From IMG/VR virus record IMGVR_UViG_3300008470_000039, positions 1 to 20,016 of that record: a stretch of 20,016 bases of DNA; one strand, written 5' to 3'. Source of the DNA: a virus. The notes beneath the pieces are model-generated. The model was not told the DNA's origin. It worked only from the letters and a program-made list of their open reading frames with translations, and did no database searches. Position numbers and translations under genes: made by a program. The stretch's first letter is position 1, and every line of letters starts with the position of its first letter. Shown in pieces: positions 9,230 to 12,534 of the stretch.

Positions 9230-9566
9230 AATAGTAATAGAACATAACAAGCCAAAAGTAAAGAAGTCAACTATTAAGGCTATGTGCTTTAAGAAGTTTA
9301 ACGATGGCTTTACGGTTAACGAAGTAGTGAAAGCATACGGACACAATCTAAGAAGCGTACAATACTACAAAAAGAAGTATGTAGATGAAATGCTTTATAA
9401 GATGAAAAACTATAGAGGTGTAATGTTTACAGAATCTAAGCAACCGTATGCAGGTAATGAAATGAGATACGGTACAGAGCTTCCAGTTTACAAATGGGAG
9501 GAGCTAGACAATGTAGAAAAGATATTATCTAGACACGTATTTCACAAAGAGTTAAGAAAATTATAG
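9222..9566 (+). CDS. probable helix-turn-helix DNA-binding protein
   Basis: 114 residues. Residues 10-50 are basic and contain a helix-turn-helix-like stretch: MCFKKFNDGFTVNEVVKAYG then RSVQYYKKKYVDEML, as in resolvase- or transposase-type HTH domains where a glycine-bearing turn links two helices. The remainder (about 56-114) has no known motif. It would bind DNA, but target and purpose are unknown. A promoter element overlaps its last codons and directs the following SSB-like gene. Confidence 0.5.
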   Translation: MNKIVIEHNKPKVKKSTIKAMCFKKFNDGFTVNEVVKAYGHNLRSVQYYKKKYVDEMLYKMKNYRGVMFTESKQPYAGNEMRYGTELPVYKWEELDNVEKILSRHVFHKELRKL

Positions 9567-9598: not shown

Positions 9599-9940
9599 AT
9601 GGATTTAGAAATAAAAGGAACTCTAACCAAAATAGGAGAAATTGTAGAAGGGTTAAACAAGGATAACCAACCTTGGCAAAAGCTAACCTACACAGTAACA
9701 ACAGACCAAACTTATAATAACCTATATGCTTTTGAAGTGTTTAGCCAGGAGAAGGTAGAACAATTTAGAAAGTATAACGTAGAAGGGGATAAGGTAAAGG
9801 TACAATTTAACGTTAGCACAAATGAATGGAAAGGTAAATACTTCACGACTCTACAGTCTTGGAGATGCACAAAGGACACTATGGAGGATGCGCCGCAAAA
9901 AGTGGCACAAACTGAAGCAGAAGATGACTTGCCCTTTTAG
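9599..9940 (+). CDS. SSB-like single-stranded DNA-binding protein (DUF3127 type)
   Basis: 113 residues. The first 90 form an OB-like fold (LEIKGTLTKIGEIVEGLNKD, WQKLTYTVTTD, YAFEVFSQEKV, GDKVKVQFNVSTNEWKGKYF), the pattern of DUF3127 proteins found in Bacteroidetes and their phages. The C-terminus ends EAEDDLPF, the acidic tip of bacterial SSBs that docks partner proteins. It would coat single-stranded DNA in replication and recombination. It has its own promoter and stands between the recombination module and the replication initiator. Confidence 0.85.
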   Translation: MDLEIKGTLTKIGEIVEGLNKDNQPWQKLTYTVTTDQTYNNLYAFEVFSQEKVEQFRKYNVEGDKVKVQFNVSTNEWKGKYFTTLQSWRCTKDTMEDAPQKVAQTEAEDDLPF

Positions 9941-9988: not shown

Positions 9989-9996
9989 TATATTTG
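9989..9996 (+). promoter_or_regulatory. putative -7 box TATATTTG of the structured leader
   Basis: TATATTTG (exact TAnnTTTG) followed by TACAAC, in the 200-nt gap after the SSB-like gene. Transcription would start near 10003 and run into the hairpins at 10021-10128. No clear -33 TTTG at the usual distance. Confidence 0.55.
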
Positions 9997-10020
9997 TACA
10001 ACTAAATAAAAATATTACAA

Positions 10021-10128
10021 TAGTATATGTAGGCTGAGGTGCAAAAGGTCTACAAACATATATTAATAATTTAAACCCTTTAATGGTTAGTAGAGTTGCA
10101 CCCTCGAAAACTATTAAAGGGTTTTTTT
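10021..10128 (+). ncRNA. structured leader RNA with two hairpins and complementary loops
   Basis: Hairpin 1: 10021-10029 pairs with 10057-10065, and TAG 10030-10032 with CTA 10050-10052, with a 4-nt bulge between. Hairpin 2: AAACCCTTTAAT 10073-10084 pairs perfectly with 10113-10124. The loop of hairpin 1 holds GAGGTGCAA (10036-10044); the loop of hairpin 2 holds TTGCACCCTC (10096-10105): complementary over 9 bp with one bulged C. The loops could therefore kiss. Hairpin 2 is followed by seven T, so it is also a terminator. It may act as an attenuator for the replication genes or as a separate small RNA. No known riboswitch was recognised. Confidence 0.6.
10073..10128 (+). terminator. intrinsic terminator before the replication initiator
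   Basis: A 12-bp perfect stem (10073-10084 with 10113-10124), extended by G-U and G-C pairs at its top, and a run of seven T at 10122-10128. It stands 12 nt before ATG 10141, so read-through or anti-termination would be needed for expression from upstream promoters. Its long loop (about 24 nt) is unusual for a plain terminator. Confidence 0.75.
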
Positions 10129-10140
10129 GTGAAAAATATT

Positions 10141-10755
10141 ATGGGAAAATTAGGTTATACATGGTATCCAAAAGACTGGAACAACTCAGAAGCAGTCTTT
10201 GAATTAACACTACAGCAAAGAGGACTATACAGGGAGCTTATAGATTTAGCTATGCTGAATGATAATAAAATAAAATATAACCCTATTGTTTGGGCTAGAA
10301 AGTTTGCGTCTACAGAAGATGAGATAGAACTTATATTGGTTAGGTTAGGTGAATTAGAGTTGATAGTAGATAAAGACCACACCTTTTTATTCATACCTAG
10401 TTGCGAACCTAGACTAAACCTAGTTAGAGGAGGTAGAAAAGGAGGAGAAAACAAGCCTACCCCCAAGCCTATAGTTAAGCCTACCCCTAAGCCTATAGCC
10501 AAGCAAAAGAAAGAGAAAGGAAAGGAAAAGAAAGTATATAGAGAATTTGAACATTTATCTATCTCAGTTGATGAAGCTAGAAAATTAGGAAACAAGTACA
10601 CAAAGAAACAAGTAGATAATGTTTTAGAGAGTATAGAAAACTATGCAAAGAATAAATCTTATAAATCACTTTACTTAACTGCAAAGAAATGGCTAGAGCG
10701 AGAACATAAAGACCAACCAAGTAACCCAAGTATTAACAACCAACCTGTAAACTAA
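10141..10755 (+). CDS. phage replication initiator (DUF1376/DnaD-like N-domain)
   Basis: 204 residues from ATG 10141. A TTG at 10096 opens the same frame, but lies inside the terminator loop, so ATG is chosen. Residues 1-85 ([51 protein letters not shown]) match the winged-helix N-domain of DUF1376-type replication proteins. A Lys/Pro linker follows, made of two near-identical 8-residue repeats ([16 protein letters not shown]). The C-terminal part (about 140-195) is helical with [10 protein letters not shown], like helicase-loading regions. The next gene, the helicase, starts at the last base of the stop codon. Confidence 0.75.
10453..10500 (+). repeat. tandem 24-bp repeat inside replication initiator gene
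   Basis: Two adjacent 24-bp copies starting AAGCCTACCCC (10453-10476 and 10477-10500) differ at three positions, with AAGCC also repeated inside each copy. They encode the KPTPKPI linker repeats. In lambda, the origin iterons lie inside the initiator gene; the same arrangement is possible here, but the repeats may only be a linker duplication. Confidence 0.65.
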
Positions 10756-11822
10756 TGTATAAAAAACTATCAGAAGTAGAGAAAGAGTTAACAGACCTTA
10801 GAAATAATGGTAGGCAAAGAGGGAAGTCTATTGGTTGGGATTGGAATAACATGCCACTAACAATCAAAGAAGGATGCACTACGTATTTAGGAGCAGCTCC
10901 TGCAAGTGGTAAAACAGAACTTTGGCTAGAGATATTAATAAACTTATCATGTGTTCACAGTTGGAAACATATTATATTCACTCCTGAGACTGGAGACTTT
11001 AAAGATGTGTATTCAGAACTATGCCATAAATTTATAGGCAAAGGATTTATAAAAGGATTCAACGCAATGAATGAAGTAGAGCGAGTATATGCAGAAAGTT
11101 TTATAGATGAGCATTTTGTAGTTATAGACCCATTAGATAAAGACTTAACTATTATAGGCTTCTATAAATTAGTTGATAATATAGAATCTGAATTAGGCAC
11201 TACTTTTAATACTACTACTATCGACCCTTGGAACGAATTAAGCGAGGAGTACCTACCCGAAGATTTAGGTAGAGAAGATAAATACCTAAGCAGAATACTA
11301 GGAAAGGTTAGGAGAAACGCTAGAACAACTAATAGACATAACTGTATAATAACCCATGTTAGAGACCAAGCACAATCCACAGTAGATGGGATTAGTTTTT
11401 ATCCTGCACCACACGCTAGAGAATTAGCAGGAGGTCAAGTCTGGTTTAGAAAAGGATTATCTATGCTTATGCAATGGCGACCTCCTCTAGGATTAAGCTC
11501 TAAGAATGGAGTACCCTATACAAATAACGAACTACATTTAATAATAGCTAAGAGCAAACCCAAAGGAGTAAGCACTAACGGAGTTTATACATTGTATTTT
11601 GATTTAGATAAGTCTAGATATTATATGCTAGATGACAGAGGCAATAGAGTTTATTCAGATAGGGGAAAGTACAACGAAGTAAAAGAAGAACAAAAAATAC
11701 TACCTTTGAAACCAAATAAAGCATTTGACATAAACCACACCATAGAACCAAAGAAAGCAACCGTTTCAAAAGATGACGAATGGCTACAGGGTTACATGGA
11801 AGAAGAAGAATTTAAGATATGA
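10755..11822 (+). CDS. DnaB-like (RecA-fold, SF4) replicative helicase
   Basis: 355 residues, start coupled to the initiator stop (TAATG). Walker A is GAAPASGKT (46-54); Walker B is FNTTTIDPWNE with Asp157; ITHVRDQ (about residue 200) fits the sensor region of DnaB/RecA-like ATPases. It lacks the usual DnaB N-terminal domain, so it resembles the short phage helicases of T7 gp4 C-half or toprim-less type. The C-terminal tail (about 310-355) is acidic. It would unwind DNA at the fork, loaded by the initiator encoded just upstream. Confidence 0.78.
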   Translation: MYKKLSEVEKELTDLRNNGRQRGKSIGWDWNNMPLTIKEGCTTYLGAAPASGKTELWLEILINLSCVHSWKHIIFTPETGDFKDVYSELCHKFIGKGFIKGFNAMNEVERVYAESFIDEHFVVIDPLDKDLTIIGFYKLVDNIESELGTTFNTTTIDPWNELSEEYLPEDLGREDKYLSRILGKVRRNARTTNRHNCIITHVRDQAQSTVDGISFYPAPHARELAGGQVWFRKGLSMLMQWRPPLGLSSKNGVPYTNNELHLIIAKSKPKGVSTNGVYTLYFDLDKSRYYMLDDRGNRVYSDRGKYNEVKEEQKILPLKPNKAFDINHTIEPKKATVSKDDEWLQGYMEEEEFKI

Positions 11823-11934: not shown

Positions 11935-12534
11935 ATGAAAGTGCTAAACTTATATGCAGGTATCGGAGGTAATAGAAAACTATGGAAAGATATAGAAGTT
12001 ACCCCTGTAGAGTTTGAACCAAAAATAGCAGAGCAATACAAAGCTCTATACCCTAATGATAATTTAATAGTAGGAGATGCTCACGAATACCTACTAGACC
12101 ATTATAGAGAGTTTGACTTTATATGGAGTTCGCCTCCTTGTCAAACACATAGCAAAACAAATTACTTTACTAATGAAATAAGAAAGCGTAGTAGGTATCC
12201 TGATATGAAACTTTATCAAGAAATTATATTTTTAAATCAATTTTGTAAAGGGAAGTTTTGTGTAGAAAATGTTATAGGATATTACGAACCATTAATTAAA
12301 CCCACTAAAATAGGCAGGCATTATCTTTGGAGTAATTTTAACATACCATTAATAGAGCAGCCTAAAGGAGATGTAGGTACAATGATGAAGCAGTATGTAG
12401 GTACTGGTAAACACGCACACGACAAAAAGCTAGTAGATAGAAACGCTGTTAATTCAAAGTTAGGGTTACACGTTTTAAACACAGCTAGAGGAATAATAAC
12501 ACAAAACAAAGTAGAACAAAGTAAACTATTTTAA
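11935..12534 (+). CDS. DNA (cytosine-5) methyltransferase, short phage type
   Basis: 199 residues. Motif I is LNLYAGIGG (4-12), binding S-adenosylmethionine; motif IV is SSPPCQTHSKTN with catalytic Cys69; motif VI is ENV (111-113). IGRHYLWSNFNIP resembles motif VIII, though the classical QxRxR is not plain, and a C-terminal NAVNSKLGLHVLNTARG could be motif IX-X. The target-recognition region is very short compared with the usual 300-400 residues. No matching restriction enzyme lies next to it, so protection of phage DNA is the likely role. Specificity cannot be read from sequence. Confidence 0.8.
   Translation: MKVLNLYAGIGGNRKLWKDIEVTPVEFEPKIAEQYKALYPNDNLIVGDAHEYLLDHYREFDFIWSSPPCQTHSKTNYFTNEIRKRSRYPDMKLYQEIIFLNQFCKGKFCVENVIGYYEPLIKPTKIGRHYLWSNFNIPLIEQPKGDVGTMMKQYVGTGKHAHDKKLVDRNAVNSKLGLHVLNTARGIITQNKVEQSKLF

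Follow-up and report, generated by a model that had tools for sequence, protein, structure and literature searches.

Promoter early stem-loop (PeSL) cassettes have reportedly been described in T4-like phages, RB49 among them (Arbiol et al. 2010 and Comeau et al. 2014, cited in PMC4503421), and are the closest known design to the element analysed here. In ColE1-type copy control the kissing loops are 7 nt long, and their letters may vary provided that a substitution in one partner is matched in the other. The kissing complex of ColE1 RNA I and RNA II is stabilised by Rop (PMC8683028), and in the Shigella RnaG/icsA system a kissing contact leads to the formation of an intrinsic terminator, an effect relieved by the VirF protein (PMC5394118). 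The put RNA of phage HK022 consists of two promoter-proximal hairpins in an early transcript that affect termination in cis (PMC9378689). In antitermination of the Q/AlpA type, a factor bypasses an intrinsic terminator located downstream of the promoter (PMC9371919). In the 20,016-nt stretch of viral DNA analysed here (the window), the replication genes of a Bacteroidota-type phage are preceded by a promoter and a predicted small RNA with two hairpins. A search of the window with the covariance models of Rfam release 15, judged by the gathering threshold, gave 0 matches, in agreement with the first-pass annotation, which had recognised no known class, and four relatives compared with the same release gave chance-level matches only (E up to 1). 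No earlier description of the cassette was found in the open-access literature, to which this search was confined.

Structure of the leader and its genomic context

The leader lies between a gene for a single-strand DNA-binding protein (SSB), which stops 49 nt short of the promoter box, and the first gene of a replication operon. The features of the locus are the following:

9599-9940, + strand: upstream gene, single-strand DNA-binding protein (DUF3127; phrog_4932, E 3e-22; PF11325, E 1e-17)
9989-9996, + strand: TATATTTG, Bacteroidota-type -7 promoter box, from the window sequence
10000-10128, + strand: predicted leader RNA, from promoter box, terminator and fold (z -3.2)
10021-10065, + strand: hairpin 1, with outer stem 10021-10027/10059-10065 and inner stem 10028-10035/10047-10054
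10038-10044, + strand: kissing word GGUGCAA in loop 1, pairing with 10096-10102; both partners altered in L122 and in L130
10073-10124, + strand: hairpin 2, predicted intrinsic-terminator hairpin; 95.6% of lower-stem cells paired in homologues
10089-10108, + strand: internal loop AGUA (10089-10092)/GAA (10106-10108) around GAG/CUC
10096-10102, + strand: kissing word UUGCACC, the entire 7-nt apical loop of hairpin 2
10122-10128, + strand: seven-T run of the predicted terminator
10141-10755, + strand: replisome-organizer-like gene behind the leader (phrog_13246, E 5e-7)
10755-11822, + strand: next gene of the operon, primase/helicase-like (phrog_5482, E 3e-39; phrog_239, E 6e-7)

The promoter box, both hairpins, the seven T and ATG 10141 all lie where the first-pass annotation had placed them, and its general reading of a promoter, a kissing RNA and a terminator is supported by the sequence and by homologues. 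The start of the leader RNA, near 10000-10003, was placed from the promoter box and its end from the T run, both being predictions from DNA alone. A GC-containing hairpin followed by a T run, as expected of an intrinsic terminator, is present in the sequence at 10073-10128, and compared with dinucleotide-shuffled versions the 157-nt leader stretch has the better fold (z -3.2), equalled by 1 in 200 of them.

Some details of the fold were redrawn. The lower stem of hairpin 2 comprises 16 pairs with one G.U (10073-10088/10109-10124), and the perfect 12-bp stem noticed earlier is present as only a part of it. Pairing of the two loops, GAGGTGCAA and TTGCACCCTC, had been proposed as 9 bp with one bulge; the pairing stood, and its geometry is better described as a perfect 7-bp kiss between GGUGCAA and UUGCACC. 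We regard the kissing-loop structure of the leader as almost certain. In hairpin 2, GAG (10093-10095) and CUC (10103-10105) close the apical helix, with the AGUA/GAA internal loop below it, which from its letters we take to be sarcin-ricin/loop-E-like. The same letters were found in L122, L130, L245 and Croceibacter phage P2559S (L288); the internal loop, located beneath the kissing loop of the terminator hairpin, might offer a site for a protein or for a tertiary contact.

In another part of the window, an ORF for a C-5 cytosine methylase (11935-12534) covers only positions 1-111 of the 324 of the Pfam domain; since only the first third of the domain is matched, the gene may be split or truncated.

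Covariation of the kissing loops in homologous leaders

Homologues of the downstream protein were located in viral contigs, and these served as a source of related leaders. Two of them are nearly the same as that of the window and differ in the kiss, which is GGUACAA/UUGUACC in L122 and GGUGCAG/CUGCACC in L130 instead of GGUGCAA/UUGCACC. These are two independent changes, each compensated on the partner side; compensating changes in both loops of homologues, proposed as a check in the first-pass annotation, were thus found. The three-sequence alignment A3, for which 129 of 500 shuffles were as good, was used just for its two double changes. In L127 and L128 (GCUCUCAC/GUGAGAGC) the leader sequence is unrelated, and the architecture and the complementary loops are kept with the same gene behind. 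L129 (GUGGACG/CGUCCAC) likewise has an unrelated leader sequence and retains the promoter, hairpin 1, the terminator hairpin, the complementary loops and the same gene.

A subfamily with three hairpins (A2, 31 aligned leaders) provided a larger set. Its kissing helix is paired in 99.5% of cells, a percentage that is partly circular because the members were collected via loop complementarity. All seven pairs of the kiss changed on both sides with no one-sided change, every position varies, and that circularity would not readily account for how many kinds of compensated pair occur. Sliding the partners against each other lowered whole-structure pairing from 95.5% to 39-49%. The three stems of these leaders contain 82 G.U pairs vs 20 A.C mismatches, an excess which indicates that the plus-strand RNA is the selected, folded molecule. 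No G.U was present in the 217 kissing cells.

Size and distribution of the cassette family

A first pattern scan with GAGGTGCAA followed by TTGCACC returned mostly chance matches inside genes, and included the L054/L075 type, which led to the wider family. A descriptor script, requiring the promoter TAnnTTTG, hairpin 1 and a later hairpin with a complementary loop, was then run on fetched loci. It gave 172 matches at a score of at least 34, vs 12 when the same promoters were joined to block-shuffled sequence, and 129 matches at a score of at least 38, vs 0 in the shuffles. On strand, 161 of the 172 agree with the matched gene, mostly the coding strand. Matches with an ORF behind them form 58 clusters with about 50 kissing words (51 once four loci judged spurious were left out).

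The pairing of loops was also evaluated in an unbiased set of leaders, which had to have a promoter, a 5′ hairpin, a terminator and an ORF and were under no requirement for loop pairing; most of them came from protein searches and a few from loci fetched by kissing-word pattern. A complementary loop run of at least 6 nt was found in 28 of 31 clusters, whereas 500 shuffles in which the second loops were dealt among the leaders averaged 2.6 such clusters and never exceeded 8. The earlier judgement that such loop nesting is hard to get by chance was therefore well founded. Of the three non-kissing clusters at least one, Croceibacter phage P2559S, does kiss with its hairpins drawn otherwise. In an earlier unbiased set, 22 of 27 leaders kissed, vs about 1.6 expected.

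From one relative to another the architecture persists, with a complete turnover of letters. The order promoter, hairpins, T run and ATG holds for the window and 53 retained clusters, with a median of 15 nt from stem end to ATG in these clusters (typically 12-22 nt). Most clusters have hairpin 1 beginning 3-6 nt past TTTG, roughly where transcription should begin; the subfamily of the window deviates, with a start 24-32 nt after the box. RNA lengths predicted from sequence cluster near 85-100 nt. Most clusters have at least 8 T in a 12-nt tail; in L212, L215 and L225 the T runs are weak, and termination there may be inefficient. Among 50 independent cassettes, the free positions of TAnnTTTG were T in 84% and A in 72%, a weak TTG lay some 20 nt before the box, and no conserved upstream DNA motif was found beyond the promoter. 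At L229:3600-3660, two TAnnTTTG boxes 28 nt apart stand ahead of a single CTGCAAG cassette.

Cassettes most often head replication operons. At an automatic threshold, 29 of 46 distinct replisome-organizer homologues have one in the 900 nt upstream, these cassettes using more than 20 different words, and about seven further homologues have one by eye; about a third of the homologous operons are without a cassette at the threshold used, and some of these carry other leaders. Cassettes also precede HTH replication initiators and HNH-helicase-like, ParB-like, antirepressor and homing-endonuclease-like genes (names read from N-termini unless annotated). The link to the replication initiator drawn at first thus held as a frequent position before replication operons, and not as one peculiar to them. 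A single cassette type can precede several genes, the GTAGCAG type being found before five different ORF starts. About 12 distinct genomes carry at least two cassettes, and all of these use different words, the genomes being too few to claim selection.

Three cultured phages carry cassettes. In Tenacibaculum phage Gundel_1 they stand ahead of the gene annotated as a primosomal protein and ahead of ant, in P2559S before a gene adjoining the initiator, and in Flavobacterium phage 11b before gp62. In P2559S (L288:33955-34001), the annotated start of gp48 at 33955 falls inside the leader RNA, and ATG 34001, just after the terminator, is the likelier start. Searches of named phages gave no match with the leader (blastn) or with the replisome organizer (tblastn). 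A covariance model of the three-hairpin subfamily was run on 25 phage records, most of which yielded one to two strong copies each; in 296 host genomes it found three weak matches, none with the cassette architecture on inspection. With the descriptor, one comparable match (T run and ORF) was obtained in 1.0 Mb of low-GC Bacteroidota chromosomes, both strands, vs 137 in 2.9 Mb of phage loci, the low-GC genomes having replaced a GC-rich set as host background. A prophage search of 395 Bacteroidota genomes turned up next to no copies of the downstream initiators. The examined phages are rich in cassettes, and the sampled Bacteroidota chromosomes have essentially none.

A second leader design was observed before the same replisome-organizer gene at L221:3200-3300, L265:3900-4000 and L227:3895-4000. 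An outer stem of the GGAG..CTCC type encloses a short segment (CGTAGT, TACGTT and AAGTAGTT), whose complement (ACTACG, AACGTA and AACTACTT) comes right after the stem and T run, which makes a covarying pseudoknot near the ATG.

Possible function and relation to described systems

Judging from sequence, the cassette is probably a cis-acting transcription attenuator composed of promoter, kissing-loop leader and terminator. Among the three functions offered in the first-pass annotation (attenuator, small RNA, antisense copy control), this is the best fit, since in nearly all relatives the element follows a promoter of its own and leads directly into an ATG, that of unrelated genes included. As it consists of the gene's own promoter plus a leader ending in a terminator, attenuation with regulated read-through would be its simplest reading. 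RNA polymerase would start just past TATATTTG and make hairpin 1; the loop of hairpin 2 would pair with loop 1 as it emerges, and hairpin 2 would close. By default, most transcripts would stop in the run of T, some 12 nt short of the ATG that opens the replication operon, and hairpin 2 should also halt transcripts coming from the ssb operon. Downstream expression would depend on read-through, with the kissing helix as the gate, and the kiss might stabilise or time the terminator, its effect on termination being conceivable in both directions.

Both hairpins are predicted to form together without the kiss (mean pair probability of the terminator 0.88, none below 0.5). The kiss is therefore compatible with termination, which does not by itself tell which way termination is pushed. 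No alternative antiterminator fold was found and, unlike in classical attenuators, no switch is visible within the RNA. The cassettes share an architecture that covaries, favours the coding strand, sits before ATGs and recurs before different genes; in vivo, we infer, they would terminate transcription, the kiss would strengthen this, and some factor would relieve it. Fixed complementarity with free letters suggests that nothing reads the sequence of the loops, and that private words are useful or tolerated. Selection for the shape and complementarity of the kiss, and not for its letters, fits a shape-reading partner, either a phage or a host factor, and also fits private words that avoid pairing between cassettes.

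The ends of the RNA bear on a different reading, in which the terminated RNA is itself the product, a compact small RNA acting in trans (as a regulator, or as a decoy for a polymerase or RNA-binding protein of the host), with the gene behind it incidental. Most clusters have hairpin 1 close to where transcription should start; with a terminator at the other end, both ends would be protected, and the predicted lengths are similar. We regard this as unlikely, because the cassette stands directly before the ATG in nearly all clusters, filling the only promoter space of that gene, because the same cassette is found ahead of different genes, and because the kiss would consume the exposed loops. The option of antisense copy control was not supported: besides the excess of G.U over A.C in the stems (82:20), which favours the plus strand, a minus-strand scan for promoters of the -7 box type showed no enrichment (6 in cassettes plus 120 nt vs 9 in controls). 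Copy number could also be sensed in trans if terminated RNAs kissed nascent leaders of the same cassette (loop 2 on loop 1) and altered termination, so that replication genes would follow phage copy number and private words would separate cassettes like the incompatibility groups of ColE1-type plasmids. The position before replication genes, the about 50 distinct words, their difference in all of the about 12 multi-cassette genomes, and the strength (median nearest-neighbour energy -9.5 kcal/mol) and lack of G.U of the kiss are consistent with such sensing; nevertheless, the intramolecular kiss should beat the intermolecular one, multi-cassette genomes are too few to show word avoidance, and genes other than replication genes are also preceded by cassettes, which makes it quite unlikely.

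The occurrence of the same cassette before different genes, as in the GTAGCAG type, would also be expected of a mobile recombination cassette only, as proposed for T4-like PeSLs, that is, a swap point for accessory genes in which the kiss merely improves termination; intergenic DNA of RB49 has the same order of promoter, stem-loop and ATG. Recombination would require neither that distant phages keep the cassette in place ahead of replication operons nor a fast turnover of letters combined with strict loop complementarity, and we consider this very unlikely as the whole explanation, the recombination-cassette and attenuator readings not being exclusive of each other. Two hairpins with kissing loops followed by a terminator recall a ligand-binding riboswitch with a loop-loop contact, as in the purine type. 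Outside the promoter, however, no letters are common to all subfamilies and just 7 columns are invariant within A2, every position of the kiss varies, Rfam gave no match and the genes behind are unrelated, so that a riboswitch is extremely improbable. Short complementary loops do arise by chance, but chance or DNA-level inverted repeats have a negligible probability in view of the 129 high-scoring matches set against none in shuffles, the single comparable match in 1.0 Mb of low-GC host DNA and the G.U-rich stems, which mark selection as RNA.

Returning to the cis-acting attenuator, the recurrence of one design with about 50 loop 'passwords' in many related phages suggests a common, so far undescribed RNA switch. 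We tentatively raise the possibility of a new class of phage regulatory RNA, carried by promoter-borne cassettes, in which a private loop word lets a 5′ hairpin and the terminator hairpin find each other, and a single reader of shape, indifferent to sequence, or the cassette's own RNA in trans, controls many genes of a phage without cross-talk; even a categorically new regulatory mechanism is conceivable. If true, a widespread RNA element would be added to Bacteroidota phages, whose transcription control is little known. The about 50 mutually different cis kissing pairs form a natural set that could serve as ready-made orthogonal attenuators in genetic tools, and they make testable how a loop-loop contact with a terminator hairpin affects intrinsic termination. 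The RNA ends are measurable at once, since Gundel_1, P2559S and 11b are in culture and carry copies.

With regard to described systems, the cassette resembles antisense copy control (ColE1, R1, pT181) in its covarying kissing loops of about 7 nt, here within one RNA, and ColE1 RNA I/RNA II in that the loops are fully paired in the kissing complex. The partners in ColE1, however, are two RNAs from opposite strands, whereas both loops here belong to a single plus-strand RNA. RnaG/icsA acts via an antisense RNA, in contrast to the cis contact of the phage cassette. The put RNA measures about 70 nt and suppresses terminators that lie further downstream, and the available text of PMC9378689 mentions no loop-loop contact. 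Factors of the Q/AlpA type load through a promoter DNA element, whereas the phage cassettes conserve an RNA shape instead. PeSL cassettes share the order of promoter, terminator-like stem-loop and ATG within a few nt (RB49 9405-9500, minus strand), the presence of several copies per phage and the occurrence of the same cassette before different genes. In four intergenic regions of RB49, the arrangement of promoter, stem-loop and ATG was clear in one, and the stem overlapped the promoter in two others; the RB49 examples have one stem-loop, and kissing 5′ hairpins are absent from all four regions, which sets the cassette apart as a variant. The scanned window proteins showed no match to a T4-specific family, and the window promoter is of the Bacteroidota type, vs the sigma70-like T4 early type of PeSL. 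In the window, unlike in PeSL, the loop of a 5′ hairpin covaries with the loop of the terminator, in an element that often heads replication operons.
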